This document shows, piece after piece, positions 27,022-34,668 of a stretch of DNA of 64,000 nucleotides. The position numbers were made by a program, and so were the translations under genes. Positions within the stretch are counted from its first letter, which is position 1; each line of letters opens with the position of its first letter. The notes beneath the pieces are model-generated. The model was not told the DNA's origin, did not search any database, and saw nothing but the letters and a program-made list of their open reading frames with translations. The stretch is taken from positions 248,001 through 312,000 of the forward strand of contig NZ_SHNN01000004.1 of NCBI RefSeq assembly GCF_026262625.1. The letters are read 5' to 3'. This stretch comes from Candidatus Litorirhabdus singularis. Its GTDB lineage: Bacteria; Pseudomonadota; Gammaproteobacteria; Pseudomonadales; Halieaceae.

Positions 27022-27063
27022 TAGTGGCATGATCCACAACTTATTACATTGGGTGTAATTATT

Positions 27064-27091
27064 GGGCCGACTTTTGTCGGCCCCTTTTTTT
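27064..27091 (+). terminator. Rho-independent terminator
   Basis: GGGCCGAC-TTTT-GTCGGCCC forms an eight-base stem followed by C and seven T. It ends the TonB-receptor transcript. Confidence 0.92.
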
Positions 27092-27133
27092 GTCCGTAGA
27101 AAAATAAATAGGCTGCCAGCGGAGAAGTCGCTT

Positions 27134-28939
27134 ATGGGTTTACAGCATTGGACATTGGGTGGGGTGGTCAGCCTGGCCCTGCTGGCAGGCAGTCCAGTAT
27201 GGGCTGATGACTATTCGCCAGGCGTTGGACCACCCTTGCCGCGCCAGGCGTTGTTTGGTGACCTGCACCTGCACTCGCGCGCTTCTGCCGACGCTAATGC
27301 CATGGGTAACGTTTCGCTGACGGCGGCGGATGCCTATCGGTTTGCCAGTGGTGAGCAGGTAACCAGCAGCTCCGGTTTACCGGTGCGTTTGCGGCGCCCG
27401 CTGGATTTTTTGGCGGTAACGGATCACGCTGAATTTCTAGGTATTCTCAACGCCTTTGCTGAAAAGAACCCGCTGCTCATGGATTCGCCGTTAGGTCGGC
27501 GCTGGGGTGCTCTGTCTGGCGATGAATTTCTGCAGGCGTTTGTTGCCTCGCTGTCTGACCCTGACCCGGTGCGCGATGATGTGCCTGATTCACTGGAATG
27601 GCAGATATGGAAGGACCTGACCAGTACCGCCGACGACTTTTACAAGCCGGGTCAGTTCACCACGTTTTCCGCCTATGAATGGACGGCGGCCAATGAAGGT
27701 AACAACTTACACCGCTGTGTGATTTACCGTGATGCGGCCGATGTCACTTCAACCGTTATGCCGTTCTCATCTTTCTCTGGCGATGACCCCGAGCAACTGT
27801 GGTCGGCGTTAGAGCGGTATGAGCAAGCCACCGGCGGACGAGTGATGGCTATTCCTCACAACGGCAATCTGAGCAATGGCATTATGTGGGATACCCAGAC
27901 CTTGTCAGGTGCTCCGCTGGATAAAGACTACGCCATCAAGCGCATGCGCTGGGAGCCGGTCGCTGAAGTCACTCAGGTTAAGGGCGACAGCGAAACCCAT
28001 CCTATACTCTCACCGGAAGATGAGTTCGCCGACTTTGAACGCTGGGACCGCTACAACATTATGAATACAGCGACGACAGGGCCAGAGAACCTGCCTGGCT
28101 CTTATGCGCGCTCGGCGCTGAAGCGTGGCCTGTCTCTGGAGAAGACGCTGGGTGTTAATCCCTATCAATTTGGCATGATTGGCTCCACGGATTCACACAC
28201 CGGTTTGGTGACCGCAGCAGAAGATAACTTCTTCGGTAAGTTCGCCAACTCTGAGCCAGGCGTGCGCACCAGTGGCAGTCATATGGCCGGCATGAAAAAT
28301 GCCGATTGGGAGCTGGGAGCGTCTGGCCTGGCTGCTGTGTGGGCTCATGAAAACACCCGTGAAGCGATCTTCGATGCGCTGGAGCGCAAAGAGATTTATG
28401 CCACCACCGGTTCGCGAATACTGTTGCGATTTTTTGCCGGCTGGCAGTACCAGGGCGGTGAGCTGAATTCACCGGAGTTTACTGAGCTGGCGTATGAGCG
28501 CGGCGTGCCCATGGGCGGCGAATTGGGCCCAGGGCCACGCGGCCAGGCCCCGAAGTTTTTACTCTATGCCCTGAAAGACCCCGACGGCCCGAATTTGGCA
28601 CGCCTGCAGGTGATTAAGGGCTGGCTGGATAAATCTGGCAAGCCGCACGAGCGGATTTATGAAGTGGCACAAGCCCAAGAGTTACCCGCCGCTACCAGTA
28701 AAGAGCCGCAGGACTATTCCAATGCCTTTGGCGCTGCAGAATTAAAGGCCGAATGGCAGGACCCGGATTTTGATAAGCGCGCCAGTGCGTTTTACTATGC
28801 CCGGGTTATTGAAATTCCACGCTTGCGCTGGACTATGCATGACCAGAAATATTTCAAGGTAGCGGCGGCTAAAGAAGCACCCGTAACCGTTCAAGATAGA
28901 GCCTATTCATCACCTGTTTGGTACCGCCCTCATGATTAA
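27134..28939 (+). CDS. Secreted DUF3604 protein
   Basis: A protein of 601 residues with a signal peptide (GLQHWTLGGVVSLALLAGS, cleavage near VWADD). It matches the DUF3604 family, which has PHP-like metal-binding motifs: FGDLHLHSRASAD, LAVTDHAEFLG and GSTDSHTGL with many His/Asp residues. Function in the family is not established; a metal-dependent hydrolase of the periplasm is likely. The ATG at 27134 gives the best signal peptide; an upstream frame without a ribosome binding site is open. The stop overlaps the next gene by eight bases, so it is coupled with the PQQ dehydrogenase. DUF3604 genes often sit beside TonB receptors in marine degraders. Confidence 0.85.
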   Translation: MGLQHWTLGGVVSLALLAGSPVWADDYSPGVGPPLPRQALFGDLHLHSRASADANAMGNVSLTAADAYRFASGEQVTSSSGLPVRLRRPLDFLAVTDHAEFLGILNAFAEKNPLLMDSPLGRRWGALSGDEFLQAFVASLSDPDPVRDDVPDSLEWQIWKDLTSTADDFYKPGQFTTFSAYEWTAANEGNNLHRCVIYRDAADVTSTVMPFSSFSGDDPEQLWSALERYEQATGGRVMAIPHNGNLSNGIMWDTQTLSGAPLDKDYAIKRMRWEPVAEVTQVKGDSETHPILSPEDEFADFERWDRYNIMNTATTGPENLPGSYARSALKRGLSLEKTLGVNPYQFGMIGSTDSHTGLVTAAEDNFFGKFANSEPGVRTSGSHMAGMKNADWELGASGLAAVWAHENTREAIFDALERKEIYATTGSRILLRFFAGWQYQGGELNSPEFTELAYERGVPMGGELGPGPRGQAPKFLLYALKDPDGPNLARLQVIKGWLDKSGKPHERIYEVAQAQELPAATSKEPQDYSNAFGAAELKAEWQDPDFDKRASAFYYARVIEIPRLRWTMHDQKYFKVAAAKEAPVTVQDRAYSSPVWYRPHD

Positions 28940-30755
28940 ACGAATTCTATTGTCTGCCAGCCTGTGCGCCTTGCCACTATTCTCCTTTGCCGCTATCGAC
29001 CCCGGTGCTCAGTTGTATCAGCAGCACTGTGAGCAGTGCCATGGTGGATCCGTATCCAAAGCACCGCAGCTCAGTTTGCTGCAAATAATGTCGCCCAGCT
29101 CGATTTACCGCGCTATGACCGAAGGCATTATGATGGAGCAGGCACGCGGCCTTAAAGCATCAGAGCGACAGCTGATTGCCGAACACCTGACCGGCCAACC
29201 GCTCAACGGCGGAGGCGAAGTGCCCTTGCCACAAGCCTGTTCCGGCGCCGACGCTGCTTTTTCTGCTGCTGGTAATACCCCGCTGGCCGGCTGGGGCACC
29301 GACCTGCGCAATCAGCGTTTTCAGGGCAAGCTGCACACATCGCTAAACTTGGCTGACATGCCAGGCATGAAACTGAAATGGGCATTTGCTTACCCGGATG
29401 CAGTACGTGCCAGGTCTCAGCCACTGGTGGTGGGCAATACACTATTCGTAGGCGCCCAGGACGGCTCAGTCTTTGCACTGGATCGCAGTAGCGGTTGTCT
29501 GCGCTGGCGCTTTGAAACTGTGGCCGAAGTTAGAACCGCCATTGTCTTAGGTGACCAGAAACCCGGCAGTGACATGCTGCTGTTTTTTGGTGACATCGTT
29601 GGCAATGTATACGCGGTAAGGGCTGCCACGGGTGAACTGGTTTGGCGTGACCGACCCGACGATCACCCCAGCCTGACGCTGACTGCGGCTCCGGCTTTGC
29701 ACGAGGGGCGGCTCTACGTTCCCCTTAGCGCGTTAGAAGTGACCGCGGCGGCTGACCCTGAATATGCCTGCTGCACCTTTCGCGGTGGGGTAGCGGTCTA
29801 CGAGGCCAAAACCGGTGCGCGTCACTGGACCGGCTATACCATTGACGTGCCGCCGCAAGAAGTCGGTAAAAATTCTATCGGTACGCCGCGCATAGCACCG
29901 TCCGGTTCACCGATCTGGAATACGCCGGTGCTGGACCTGAAGCGCCAGCTGATCTATGTGGGTACCGGCGAAAACTATTCCTCGCCTGCCAATGGCACCA
30001 GCGATGCCATTATTGCCCTGAGCATGAAGGACGGCTCTATTGCCTGGGTACAACAAATGACCGCGGGTGATGCCTGGAACATGGGCTGCGAGACCGAGGA
30101 AAAAGTAAATTGCCCGCCTGAAAATGGACCTGATTATGATTTTGGTGCCGCGACTATTCTGGCTCAAACCAGCACCGGTAAAGACATAGTGCTGGCAGGA
30201 CAGAAGTCCGGTGACGTGTATGCACTGGACCCGGATAACGGCGGCAAGATTTTGTGGCAACAGAAAATGGGCCGTGGCGGTATTCAGGGCGGCGTGCATT
30301 TTGGCATGGCTGTGGACGGCGATACATTGTATGTGCCGATGTCTGACTTTGACGGCGGGCCGCGCTGGCCTGGCGTTGCGCGACCGGGGATGTCTGCCGT
30401 TGATATCAGTACTGGCACTGTACATTGGTTTACGCCAGCACAAGATATCTGTGAGGGGCGGGAGTTCTGCCAACCGGGCTTGTCGGCACCGGCTACCGCG
30501 ATGAGCGGCGGTGTAATCTCGGGATCAATGGATGGTCACCTGCGCGCCTATGACAAGAAGAACGGTAAAGTCCTCTGGGACTACGACACGGCCCAGACCT
30601 ATACCACCGTCAACGGTGTTGAAGCCAATGGCGGTTCCATCGGTGGCGGAAGTGGGCCGGTACTGGATGGCAATATGCTGTTCGTTAACTCTGGCTACGG
30701 TATCTACTTTCACATGCCGGGTAATGTGCTGTTGGCGTTTGAGTTGGCGCCCTGA
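28932..30755 (+). CDS. Cytochrome c-PQQ dehydrogenase (polyvinyl-alcohol-dehydrogenase-like)
   Basis: A periplasmic protein of 607 residues with a signal peptide (MIKRILLSASLCALPLFSFA). An N-terminal c-type cytochrome domain has CEQCH at residues 33-37 (distal Met in a MMEQARGL-like segment), and an eight-bladed PQQ beta-propeller follows, with repeats such as NTLFVGAQDGSVFALDRSSG and DIVLAGQKSGDVYALDPDNGG. Cytochrome-first order is typical of polyvinyl alcohol dehydrogenase relatives. It should oxidise an alcohol or related substrate and hand electrons to the respiratory chain. A Cys pair (AGDAWNMGCETEEKVNC) may form a disulfide. Loss of substrate information prevents a finer call. Confidence 0.9.
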   Translation: MIKRILLSASLCALPLFSFAAIDPGAQLYQQHCEQCHGGSVSKAPQLSLLQIMSPSSIYRAMTEGIMMEQARGLKASERQLIAEHLTGQPLNGGGEVPLPQACSGADAAFSAAGNTPLAGWGTDLRNQRFQGKLHTSLNLADMPGMKLKWAFAYPDAVRARSQPLVVGNTLFVGAQDGSVFALDRSSGCLRWRFETVAEVRTAIVLGDQKPGSDMLLFFGDIVGNVYAVRAATGELVWRDRPDDHPSLTLTAAPALHEGRLYVPLSALEVTAAADPEYACCTFRGGVAVYEAKTGARHWTGYTIDVPPQEVGKNSIGTPRIAPSGSPIWNTPVLDLKRQLIYVGTGENYSSPANGTSDAIIALSMKDGSIAWVQQMTAGDAWNMGCETEEKVNCPPENGPDYDFGAATILAQTSTGKDIVLAGQKSGDVYALDPDNGGKILWQQKMGRGGIQGGVHFGMAVDGDTLYVPMSDFDGGPRWPGVARPGMSAVDISTGTVHWFTPAQDICEGREFCQPGLSAPATAMSGGVISGSMDGHLRAYDKKNGKVLWDYDTAQTYTTVNGVEANGGSIGGGSGPVLDGNMLFVNSGYGIYFHMPGNVLLAFELAP

Positions 30756-31061: not shown

Positions 31062-31103
31062 TCTAAGGCTATACGGCCTGTCTATGGACCTTTATGGAGC
31101 AAG

Positions 31104-31304
31104 ATGATGTTGAGCAAAAGAATAATCACGGCTATGGCTACTCTGTTATTTGCTAATAGCGTGCTGGCCAGCCAGCCACTGGGTACGCCTTTGGTGCTGC
31201 AGCTTGGAACGGAATCGACCCTCGCTACGGGCGGGATAATGATGATCGCTGCTGTCTCATTGGCTGTCGGCATCCGCATGGTGAAGCAAAAACAGCAAAG
31301 GTAG
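31104..31304 (+). CDS. Small secreted protein with C-terminal anchor, candidate exosortase substrate
   Basis: A protein of 66 residues (65 from the ATG at 31107). The N-terminus is a signal peptide (LSKRIITAMATLLFANSVLA, cleavage near LAS-QP). Then come about 22 residues including QPLGTPLVLQLGTEST, a hydrophobic segment (GGIMMIAAVSLAVGIRMV) and a basic tail KQKQQR. The sequence of motif, helix and basic end is the layout of exosortase sorting signals, though no PEP motif is present. It stands directly downstream of the sigma-54 promoter and 40 bases upstream of the exosortase fusion. Substrate status is inferred. Confidence 0.7.
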   Translation: MMLSKRIITAMATLLFANSVLASQPLGTPLVLQLGTESTLATGGIMMIAAVSLAVGIRMVKQKQQR

Positions 31305-31344: not shown

Positions 31345-33585
31345 ATGAACCTCTCATTTGCTGGCATTCATGCGCTGATATTTTTTGGCAGCGCATTGCT
31401 ATTACTCATCCTGGAGACATTGAGGAGAAGCCAGCGTGAGCCCGTTAGGGGCAGGGAGCGCTGGATCGTGAACCTGAGCCTTATGCTCGTGGTTAGTATG
31501 GGCGGAACGCTGATATTTGCGGCGGGTCCACTTGATATCGCGCAAGCACAGCAACAGGCTGGGGAGTCGGGCTGGAATCTGCCGCTGATAGTCGAAATTC
31601 TGCTGGTATTTCTGCTGTTGGATTTTTGGCGTTATTGGGAGCACAGAGTTTTCCACGAGGTGCCGCTGCTCTGGCGAGTGCATCTGGTTCACCACAGCGA
31701 TACGTTTGTCGACGTGACTACAGCGGAACGCCACCATCCCTTTGAGGCGCTGCTCACGCTGCCGTTGGCAGCCATGCTGGTGCTGGCGCTTGGCCTGCCG
31801 CCAGCCGGCCTGATGCTGTACATGATTATTGCGGGCATGAGTGCGTTGTTTACCCACGCTAATGTTCGTTTGCCCGATAGGGTAGACAGGCGGCTGCGCA
31901 GGGTACTGGTAACGCCCTCTGTTCACGCGATTCACCACGGCAGCACACCGGCTTTGGCAGACAGTAATTATGGCGCCATATTCAGCTGCTGGGACCGGAT
32001 GTTTGGCACTTACTCTGACCCCGAAACCACGCGGGTTGATCACTTCGGGCTGGAATATTTTCATCGGCGCAGCGAGCGCACCCTGGTGCAGACAATGCTG
32101 CAGCCATTCCTCTATCGCGCAAAGATGACTGCCTATGAGCGTGAACCGGATGAGCTCGCCGCAGTTGCGGCTATCACCCTGGGGCCCACCTGGGTGCGAG
32201 CACTTACCTTATTAGGACTGATCCTGGCCTTTTCTGGTCTGGCCATGTGGCCAACTGTTGTTAACCTGACCTCTATCTGGGCGTCCACAGAGAGCTACCA
32301 GTACGCTTGGCTGGTGGTGCCATTTTTCGTATACGCCATGGGCTGGCACTATCGCGAGGAGCTCCTGCGACAGACTCCGCAGCCAGACGCTGCCGGTTTG
32401 TTGCTGACCGCAGCTGCGTTGCTGCTGTGGTCGACCGCCGCGCTGGTGCAAATCGACCTGCTACAACATATTGCGCTGGTTATACTCCTGCAGGGTATTT
32501 TCCTGGCGGTGCTGGGGCGGGGACTGTGGCTGCGATTTCTGCCGGTGTTTCTGGTACTGCTGTTCATGATTCCATCGGGCGATGTGCTTGAGTTTCCGCT
32601 GCGCGTGCTGACGTTGGATATGATTGTTTTCTTCTGCCAGTTGGTAGATTTACCCTACGTATTGGATGGCTTCAGAATTAACGTGGGTGACAATAATTAC
32701 GTGGTCCTAGATGCCTGCTCTGGCCTCAGCTTTGTCCTGCTGGCAATGTTCCTGAGCTACAGCCTGGGGTCATTGTTGTATCGCAATCTTTTTAAAGTTG
32801 TCGGCCTGACCATGCTGGGCGGATTGCTGGGCATAGTTGCCAATGGGTTGCGGGTCAACGCAATAGTCTGGGTAGACTGGATTAGCGGCACCCAAATGGA
32901 TTTAGGCGCTCACCAGGAATACCAGCTACTGGCTCTCATCTTTATGTTAGGAGGTATTTTTTTGGTGCTCTCGCGATTATCGCTGGAAGCACCCACTGAA
33001 AAAGTCACCCCGACGAGGCCTGTCGAGCCTTCCAGTTTGGCGCGCTACTCACCGGCGGCAGTTGCTATGACCATCGGGCTGATGACACTCCTGCAGCTTT
33101 TCAGCGGAGGCAACACGACATCTGGCGCGGAGTATCAACTGCCAATTGAGGATGATTGGGTGGTCGATGCGGCACGCAAAACCGGGACCTTGCAACTGCA
33201 GCGCGCGGGGGCCTTCCAGGCCACGGTAGTGCTGGCTTTACCAGGCAACGAAAGTCTGCAAACGCCCCGACCGACCAAGGCTGCCGGCGCCTGGCGAGAG
33301 ACCCGGGTGGAAAAGCACGAGGCCTGTGCTGAGCAGCGCTGCTACCCATTGATACACACGCAATGGAATATGGCTAAAAGCGATGCGGAAAAGCATATGT
33401 ATTATGCCTACCATATAGGCGGCAGGGTAACCGACTCCAAATTACTGTACCGACTGGCATCGGGCTGGAACCGGCTTCTGGGACGGGAGGAAAGTACCGG
33501 CCTGATCTCAATGATGATTGACGGCGACTCGCCGCCGATTCATGAACTCGCGGGCTCCTACTCGCGTATCTTGCAGAGGCTATAA
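31345..33585 (+). CDS. Desaturase-exosortase-EpsI-like fusion protein
   Basis: A protein of 746 residues in three parts. Residues 1 to about 260 are a fatty acid hydroxylase/sterol desaturase domain with His boxes (HRVFHE, HLVHHSD, HH in AERHHPFE, HAIHHG). Residues about 280-560 are an eight-helix exosortase domain with Cys458 in DACSGLSF, Arg503 in NGLRVN and His523 in GAHQEYQ, the expected catalytic triad. Residues about 570-746 resemble EpsI, the exosortase-associated domain. Exosortases cleave C-terminal sorting signals of exported proteins. The fusion suggests coupling of protein processing with lipid modification. It probably shares the sigma-54 transcript with the small gene upstream. 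Confidence 0.9.
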   Translation: MNLSFAGIHALIFFGSALLLLILETLRRSQREPVRGRERWIVNLSLMLVVSMGGTLIFAAGPLDIAQAQQQAGESGWNLPLIVEILLVFLLLDFWRYWEHRVFHEVPLLWRVHLVHHSDTFVDVTTAERHHPFEALLTLPLAAMLVLALGLPPAGLMLYMIIAGMSALFTHANVRLPDRVDRRLRRVLVTPSVHAIHHGSTPALADSNYGAIFSCWDRMFGTYSDPETTRVDHFGLEYFHRRSERTLVQTMLQPFLYRAKMTAYEREPDELAAVAAITLGPTWVRALTLLGLILAFSGLAMWPTVVNLTSIWASTESYQYAWLVVPFFVYAMGWHYREELLRQTPQPDAAGLLLTAAALLLWSTAALVQIDLLQHIALVILLQGIFLAVLGRGLWLRFLPVFLVLLFMIPSGDVLEFPLRVLTLDMIVFFCQLVDLPYVLDGFRINVGDNNYVVLDACSGLSFVLLAMFLSYSLGSLLYRNLFKVVGLTMLGGLLGIVANGLRVNAIVWVDWISGTQMDLGAHQEYQLLALIFMLGGIFLVLSRLSLEAPTEKVTPTRPVEPSSLARYSPAAVAMTIGLMTLLQLFSGGNTTSGAEYQLPIEDDWVVDAARKTGTLQLQRAGAFQATVVLALPGNESLQTPRPTKAAGAWRETRVEKHEACAEQRCYPLIHTQWNMAKSDAEKHMYYAYHIGGRVTDSKLLYRLASGWNRLLGREESTGLISMMIDGDSPPIHELAGSYSRILQRL

Positions 33586-33692: not shown

Positions 33693-34106
33693 TCACTCTG
33701 CCTTGGGATGGCGCACGCTCCACATGAAATAAAGTGATGCAACAATGCAGGCGATGTTGAGCGCGATGCCGAAGAACGTGTACTCCGGGCTTACTGTCGC
33801 TATTTTCTCATTGCCCGAGACCATGGCGTACTGGTTGGCAAAGCCAACAATAGTCAGGCCGCCCGTGAGCAGGCTGAAAACTGACGCGCCCGATACGGCG
33901 AGGTAGAGGGCATTGAGAATGGCGGCCTGTACCTTGGTCAGCTGGCTTCCCACGAAGTAAGCAACCAGTAAGTAACCAAACAATACCCCGGTCCATAATG
34001 CGAGATCGTTGGCGACCAGCCCGGCCTGCGTTTGCATGAGTCCAATCAAGCCCTGTTCGCGGGCGTACACCATGTACTCCAGTTGCGCTAACTCGAATTC
34101 GGTCAT
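33693..34106 (-). CDS. Small membrane protein of unknown function
   Basis: A protein of 137 residues with an N-terminal amphipathic part (MTEFELAQLEYMVYAREQG) and four hydrophobic stretches (LALWTGVLFGYLLVAYFVG; AAILNALYLAVSGASVFSL; LTIVGFANQYAMV; YTFFGIALNIACIVASLYFM). AAGGAG precedes the ATG at 34106. I do not recognise the family. It is divergent from the next membrane protein gene and could be functionally linked, but nothing in the sequence shows it. Confidence 0.68.
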   Translation of the reverse strand: MTEFELAQLEYMVYAREQGLIGLMQTQAGLVANDLALWTGVLFGYLLVAYFVGSQLTKVQAAILNALYLAVSGASVFSLLTGGLTIVGFANQYAMVSGNEKIATVSPEYTFFGIALNIACIVASLYFMWSVRHPKAE

Positions 34107-34245
34107 ACCGTTTCTCCTTATTGTTTTGTGGTCATAATAGTACATAAAGCGTAGGCTTTGGTCGGGTTTGTCCGGGCGCAGTGGTCTACCTGAAATGGGC
34201 GTATGCTGTTCAATTCACTGAAACAAAAGCAAAGAGAGCGTGCTC

Positions 34246-34668
34246 ATGCTGGACCTTGTTAGAGAAGCCGTAACAGCGCTGCAGGCGGAAACTGCCGCTT
34301 ACCCGCAGGGTGTTCAGGTATGGATGAAACTGATGGGGTTTTCGTTCCTGGCCAGTATTGTATTCGTGTACTCACGAGTGGGCGCCCGCTGGATTCTGGC
34401 TGCCTTGCTACTGAACGTGCTGGGTCTGGTTACAGGGAAACTGTTATTCCCTGAAGCGAGCAGAATGGTGATTGGTACCTACGTGCATATTCTGTTCTGG
34501 CCAGCGATGCTGTGGGGCGTGTGGCGCTCCGCCAAACCGCTTTTACTGTCACGCGCAGCGAACGGTCTGGCCGACTGGGCGTATATGGCCTGGTTGGCGT
34601 GGGCGAGTGTATTGATTGCCATCTCGCTGGTGCTGGATTTTGGCAACCTCATTGCTATGTGGGTTTGA
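34246..34668 (+). CDS. Small membrane protein of unknown function
   Basis: A protein of 140 residues with four predicted membrane helices (MKLMGFSFLASIVFVYS; WILAALLLNVLGLVTGKLL; MVIGTYVHILFWPAMLWGV; YMAWLAWASVLIAISLVL). An AGAGAG stretch lies before the ATG at 34246, and a GTG at 34240 is also open. No known motif is seen. Confidence 0.68.
   Translation: MLDLVREAVTALQAETAAYPQGVQVWMKLMGFSFLASIVFVYSRVGARWILAALLLNVLGLVTGKLLFPEASRMVIGTYVHILFWPAMLWGVWRSAKPLLLSRAANGLADWAYMAWLAWASVLIAISLVLDFGNLIAMWV

Follow-up and report, generated by a model that had tools for sequence, protein, structure and literature searches.

Most exosortase systems handle many large substrates and are encoded within EPS clusters, and their chemistry is hard to follow. 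Dedicated exosortases with a single target are also known. To our knowledge, the acceptor to which bacterial exosortases attach their targets is still an open question.

Exosortase targets may either be attached or released (PMC12188702). For the archaeosortase ArtA of Haloferax volcanii, which processes C-terminal signals in a Cys-dependent manner and has genetic and genomic links to lipid-making enzymes, a model has been proposed with archaetidylethanolamine as the nucleophile and PssA and PssD as partners (PMC7157517). PEP-CTERM/exosortase genes have been associated with N-acyl amino acid synthases (Craig et al. 2011, as cited in PMC7293339), and OlsE hydroxylates the headgroup of ornithine lipid, an amino-acid lipid (PMC11631085). 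Among the named exosortases, XrtA (TIGR03109) of the EpsH-PEP-CTERM system is the closest model to the protein described here, with which it shares the Cys and Arg. XrtA-EpsI fusions carry an EpsI-like C-terminal extension, and in XrtD (VPLPA-CTERM, TIGR04152) and XrtW (NF038142) the exosortase is likewise joined to an EpsI region. OlsE (NF052566) and the FA_hydroxylase family (PF04116) comprise His-box membrane hydroxylases, of which OlsE is the nearest named family of the N-terminal part of this protein.

The window, that is, the whole stretch of 64,000 nucleotides from Candidatus Litorirhabdus singularis (contig NZ_SHNN01000004.1) that was analysed, encodes an exosortase fused to such a hydroxylase domain and to an EpsI-like tail, directly preceded by a small gene. 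We see about even chances that these two genes form a self-contained exosortase module with a dedicated micro-substrate, in which the hydroxylase part tailors a lipid acceptor.

Domains and conserved residues of the fusion protein

The fusion protein (31345..33585, + strand) has 746 amino acids and the domain order hydroxylase, exosortase and EpsI-like tail, based on an ORF that is open throughout, domain scans and the family alignment. Using hmmscan against Pfam, residues 86-222 (31600..32010, +) matched FA_hydroxylase with an E-value of 2.6e-30 and 106 bits at a cut-off of 31, and residues 297-544 (32233..32976, +) matched Exosortase_EpsH (PF09721) with an E-value of 6.2e-33 and 114.7 bits at a cut-off of 25.7. 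The preliminary description of this DNA had claimed a triple fusion with the exosortase domain within residues 280-560. The hydroxylase and exosortase parts of this claim stand, both well above the model cut-offs. The EpsI-like tail (residues 648-726; 33286..33522, +) is the weakest part, with a match to DUF3485/EpsI below the cut-off (1.6e-4, 21.9 bits, cut-off 26.1) and an E-value of 0.023 for the EpsI model TIGR02914 (score 14.2, cut-off 42.8), yet it is conserved across the family. These partial matches below the cut-offs suggest that the tail is a diverged EpsI relative. A CX4C pair in the tail (EACAEQRC in the window copy) is kept in each fusion row of the alignment that reaches this region, and probably forms a periplasmic disulfide.

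In the hydroxylase part, the His boxes HRVFH (100-104), HLVHH (113-117), ERHH (128-131) and HAIHH (194-198) were found. Their histidines (HX3H, HX2HH, HX2HH) are invariant across the aligned fusion rows and follow the pattern of the FA_hydroxylase superfamily. The score of this part against the OlsE model was 85.8 bits, below the equivalog cut-off of 475.

The exosortase residues named beforehand, Cys458 (codon 32716-32718, +), Arg503 (32851-32853, +) and His523 (32911-32913, +), are present and invariant across the aligned fusion rows despite an overall identity of only about 40 %. In the alignment, Cys458 and Arg503 correspond to the Cys and Arg residues in XrtA and XrtD from the same genome. 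The invariant His523 is located one residue nearer than the His of these two enzymes. XrtA was the best NCBIfam exosortase type with 149.3 bits at a cut-off of 208, and the fusion family members tested reached 140-150 bits, each below this value. Since none of the NCBIfam subtype cut-offs (XrtA, XrtD, XrtW, XrtV, XrtN, XrtT and others) was reached by the fusion, with all types other than XrtA scoring far below, it is best described as an exosortase of no named type. These scores, together with the one-residue shift at the His, would fit a degenerate exosortase. The protein would then serve mainly in lipid hydroxylation, with its exosortase and EpsI parts retained as a membrane scaffold only. 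Such a degeneration is very improbable, as the three residues are invariant at this level of overall identity and a neighbouring substrate-like gene accompanies the fusion at each readable locus.

Relatives and distribution of the fusion

The same domain order was found in eight further genomes, with 39-48 % identity to the window protein where aligned. The relatives stem from Nitrosomonas aestuarii (L001), a gammaproteobacterial MAG (L002), a betaproteobacterial MAG (L003), the gammaproteobacterial MAG B33_G6 (L004:4985-7335), three genomes of the window's own family (G009, G477 and G538) and one more genome (G994). Three of these eight copies are incomplete: L003 is cut by a contig end before the tail, G994 is cut at a contig end near the N terminus, and in L004 a frameshift divides the gene inside the exosortase part, reflecting either a real pseudogene or an assembly error. 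This split copy is the one observation in line with an assembly or annotation artefact in which neighbouring genes were joined by error; nothing of the kind was seen for the window itself. Because the architecture recurs in eight other genomes from different sources, the fusion is not an assembly accident, and an artefact is almost certainly the wrong explanation.

The distribution of the fusion is rare and patchy. Within the same family, it was detected in 4 of 140 genomes, the window's own included, and in a sample across the phylum the window's own genome was the only one among 398 (0 of 397 others). It occurred in one of 369 genomes of the class of Nitrosomonas, and in 2 of 245 and 1 of 210 genomes of two further orders, with the centre genomes counted in each case. 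In a tree of the hydroxylase part, the fusions fall into a single clade (100/99), separate from the eight stand-alone relatives included, and the window copy branches with the two betaproteobacterial copies (99/99) and not with those of its own family. This clade and the grouping of the window copy suggest a single origin of the fusion followed by horizontal transfer. No relatives of the module were found in plasmid and viral collections, and the cassette is inconspicuous in base composition. The stand-alone hydroxylase relatives have ordinary neighbours that are not shared, with no obvious exosortase adjoining them in the four loci inspected by eye.

The small upstream gene and its genomic context

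Directly upstream of the fusion lies a small gene (31104..31304, +) encoding a protein of 66 amino acids, which the preliminary description did not list. The distance to the window fusion is 40 bp, compared to 39-58 bp at the loci with a clear start. A GGAG ribosome-binding site (31096..31099, +), read from the sequence, is located 4 nt before ATG 31104 and 7 nt before ATG 31107. A homologous gene of 66-89 residues was found directly before the fusion in all eight loci with readable upstream DNA. Inspection and alignment revealed the same layout in all eight copies, comprising a signal peptide, a core, a GG pair, a short transmembrane helix and a Lys/Arg tail. For the window copy, these are the signal peptide ending in SVLA before SQ (31104-31169, +), the core SQPLGTPLVLQLGTESTLATGG (31170-31235, +) and the transmembrane helix with the basic tail IMMIAAVSLAVGIRMVKQKQQR (31236-31301, +). 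With the sites placed by eye, the signal peptides of the eight copies end in SVLA, AIA, VLA, AMA, VIG, AAA, ANA and SMA. The cores, about 20-40 residues long and Gly/Pro/Leu-rich, vary in length and are of low complexity. An LP precedes the GG pair, as (LPxxx)GG, in seven of the eight proteins and is missing in the window copy (STLATGG). Judged from these sequence features, the small protein has the tripartite layout of an exosortase substrate.

The small ORF had no match in NCBIfam and Pfam at E-values of up to 1 and lacks the TIGR02595/PEP motif. The other copies had no PEP-CTERM match either, and no Pfam or NCBIfam model recognises the family. In the window's genome the gene is single-copy (a single match, 1.1e-22), and within the family small gene and fusion co-occur in the same 4 of 140 genomes and nowhere else among them. 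A profile was built from the first five copies before the remaining three were read, and its best match adjoins the fusion in G538 (2.5e-15), G477 (1.6e-7) and G009 (0.004). From its anatomy, adjacency and co-occurrence with the fusion, we infer that the small protein is a candidate for the dedicated substrate of the fusion.

Large membrane enzymes often have small partners with a single helix, and a subunit would account for the strict 1:1 pairing no less well than a dedicated substrate. The small protein could act as a subunit or chaperone in the membrane, stabilising the large enzyme or regulating it, with the true targets encoded elsewhere in the genome. We consider this quite unlikely. 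Each copy has a cleavable-looking signal peptide, a C-terminal helix and a basic tail, which is the standard layout of exosortase substrates, and the intervening region is variable in length and of low complexity, whereas stronger conservation would be expected of a subunit interface.

The genome also encodes a genuine XrtA (355.9 bits) and a genuine XrtD (555.5 bits), both in EPS clusters. The fusion is a third exosortase system of this genome, separate from the XrtA and XrtD systems. In line with the preliminary description, no EPS genes were found within about 8 kb on either side of it, and its surroundings consist of catabolic and housekeeping genes. The genome has 14 PEP-CTERM matches over the cut-off, and since the small protein is not among them, a private substrate fits. 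Across the fusion loci, the small gene is the one conserved neighbour. With this candidate substrate gene upstream in eight of eight loci and no other common neighbour, the suggested stand-alone sorting system is well supported.

Several further observations were made around these loci. Downstream of the fusion, 33693-34145 (-) and 34240-34668 (+) are small membrane-protein ORFs for which Pfam gave no match and NCBIfam none close to a cut-off. Upstream, 27062-30755 encodes a DUF3604 protein (1e-218) and, immediately after it, a cytochrome-c/PQQ beta-propeller dehydrogenase; together with the TonB-dependent receptor and Rieske oxygenase that precede these genes, the region looks like a catabolic island. 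In Nitrosomonas aestuarii, the small gene is preceded, at a distance of about 0.6 kb, by a gene for a CDP-archaeol-synthase-like lipid enzyme (L001:6566-7051; NF003114, 3.5e-24, below the cut-off), which was not seen at the other fusion loci. Rfam searches around the locus returned nothing, and sigma-70-type promoters and terminators were at chance level. A sigma-54 -24/-12 site upstream of the small gene was considered and dismissed as not convincing, since the best candidates agreed at 6-9 of the 10 core positions and their distances were inconsistent.

Proposed mechanism and comparison with known systems

In the proposed two-gene module, the small gene would give rise to a Sec-exported protein of 66-89 residues, anchored in the inner membrane by its C-terminal helix and Lys/Arg tail. 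After removal of the signal peptide, the exosortase part would cut near (LPxxx)GG before the helix via Cys458, Arg503 and His523, which are predicted to be periplasmic. Cleavage near the GG pair is proposed because of exosortase family knowledge and the gene pairing in eight of eight loci. By analogy to the archaeosortases, the thioester-linked peptide of about 20-40 residues might then be passed to an amine-bearing acceptor. The hydroxylase part, with its predicted cytoplasmic His-box site, may make or tailor the lipid acceptor, or its acyl chain or headgroup, before it crosses the membrane, which is the weakest step of the mechanism. The product would be a Gly/Pro/Leu-rich peptide with a C-terminal lipid tag at the cell surface. 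The retention of all three parts and of the catalytic residues at 39-48 % identity counts in favour of this module. The missing LP in the small protein of the window counts against it, and the score of the hydroxylase part far below the OlsE cut-off counts against lipid tailoring.

Attachment of a processed peptide to a hydroxylated or desaturated lipid, as suggested in the preliminary description, is plausible by analogy. The archaeosortase model, the N-acyl amino acid synthase link and the headgroup activity of OlsE support the analogy of lipid transfer. A bolder reading, which we put forward tentatively as a possible one, is a minimal, horizontally spread pathway of two genes with a membrane product of a new class. 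In it, one multifunctional membrane enzyme would hydroxylate a lipid and, through its exosortase part, attach this lipid to the new C terminus of a ribosomal micro-peptide of about 20-40 residues, giving a ribosomal lipopeptide. Ornithine lipid as an obligatory acceptor was rejected, as two of the eight fusion genomes, one of them only 81 % complete, gave no match to the OlsB-type PF13444. In the window's own genome, a PF13444 acyltransferase (C11:436151) and a PEP-CTERM match (C11:438911) lie about 2.5 kb apart. This pair (C11:436151-438976) lies about 26 kb from the XrtA gene and agrees with the link between N-acyl amino acid synthases and PEP-CTERM.

The topology of the fusion was predicted from hydrophobicity and charge distribution using the positive-inside rule. 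The basic loop at residues 24-40 and the His-box loops at 95-132 and about 172-275 are predicted to be cytoplasmic, and the exosortase loops with Cys458 and His523 as well as the EpsI-like tail are predicted to be periplasmic. The Cys/Arg/His site and the His-box metal site are thus predicted on opposite membrane faces, and a cavity shared by the two membrane domains, as had been suggested, is unlikely. For the same reason, coupling between hydroxylase and exosortase would need lipid flipping. The AlphaFold model of the fusion, computed from a 4-row alignment, was too poor for cavity or fold analysis (pLDDT 43.8, pTM 0.31), and a PDB sequence search with the fusion family profile gave no match.

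Alternatively, the exosortase part may merely release a Gly/Pro/Leu-rich peptide as a secreted signal, a bacteriocin-like peptide or a surfactant, with the hydroxylase performing an unrelated or housekeeping lipid modification and being fused for co-expression only. The mature core of only about 20-40 residues without a recognised domain, the repeated (V/L)Gxx units in five of the eight cores and the release of targets possible for exosortases in general (PMC12188702) are consistent with this. A glycine zipper in the mature peptide was rejected, since a Gly spacing of 4 had a shuffle p < 0.05 in two copies only and is absent in the window's own, which also speaks against a released peptide. 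Moreover, none of the genes conserved beside the fusion is a partner for immunity, export or regulation, and the covalent joining of the parts, retained at about 40 % identity in both beta- and gammaproteobacteria, suggests that they are functionally coupled. Release alone is, on balance, a rather unlikely account.

If the small protein is the sole substrate of the two-gene module, exosortase chemistry could be tested in a minimal system and the acceptor could be named. The module may need two genes only, the small size of its candidate substrate would allow intact-mass analysis, and the presence of a hydroxylase in the fusion points to a lipid as the acceptor. The open literature outside the main exosortase family papers yielded no paper on a hydroxylase-exosortase fusion, and an earlier description is possible. 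What is new is the hydroxylase within the fusion, the very small size of the putative private substrate and the completeness with two genes.

Compared to XrtA and PEP-CTERM, the fusion adds the N-terminal hydroxylase domain and is located outside an EPS cluster. In addition, its candidate target lacks the PEP-CTERM motif and is one dedicated mini-protein instead of many. The VPLPA signal of XrtD loosely resembles the LPxxxGG before the helix of the small proteins. However, the fusions reached only 59-86 bits against the XrtD model (cut-off 400), the window's genome holding a separate genuine XrtD, and 64-98 bits against XrtW (cut-off 425). Against OlsE they scored 77-101 bits (cut-off 475), and differ from it in being fused to an exosortase and in forming a clade of their own. 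ArtA is archaeal, and its lipid enzymes PssA and PssD are separate proteins that make the headgroup, whereas in the fusion of the window a hydroxylase-like domain is covalently joined to the exosortase.
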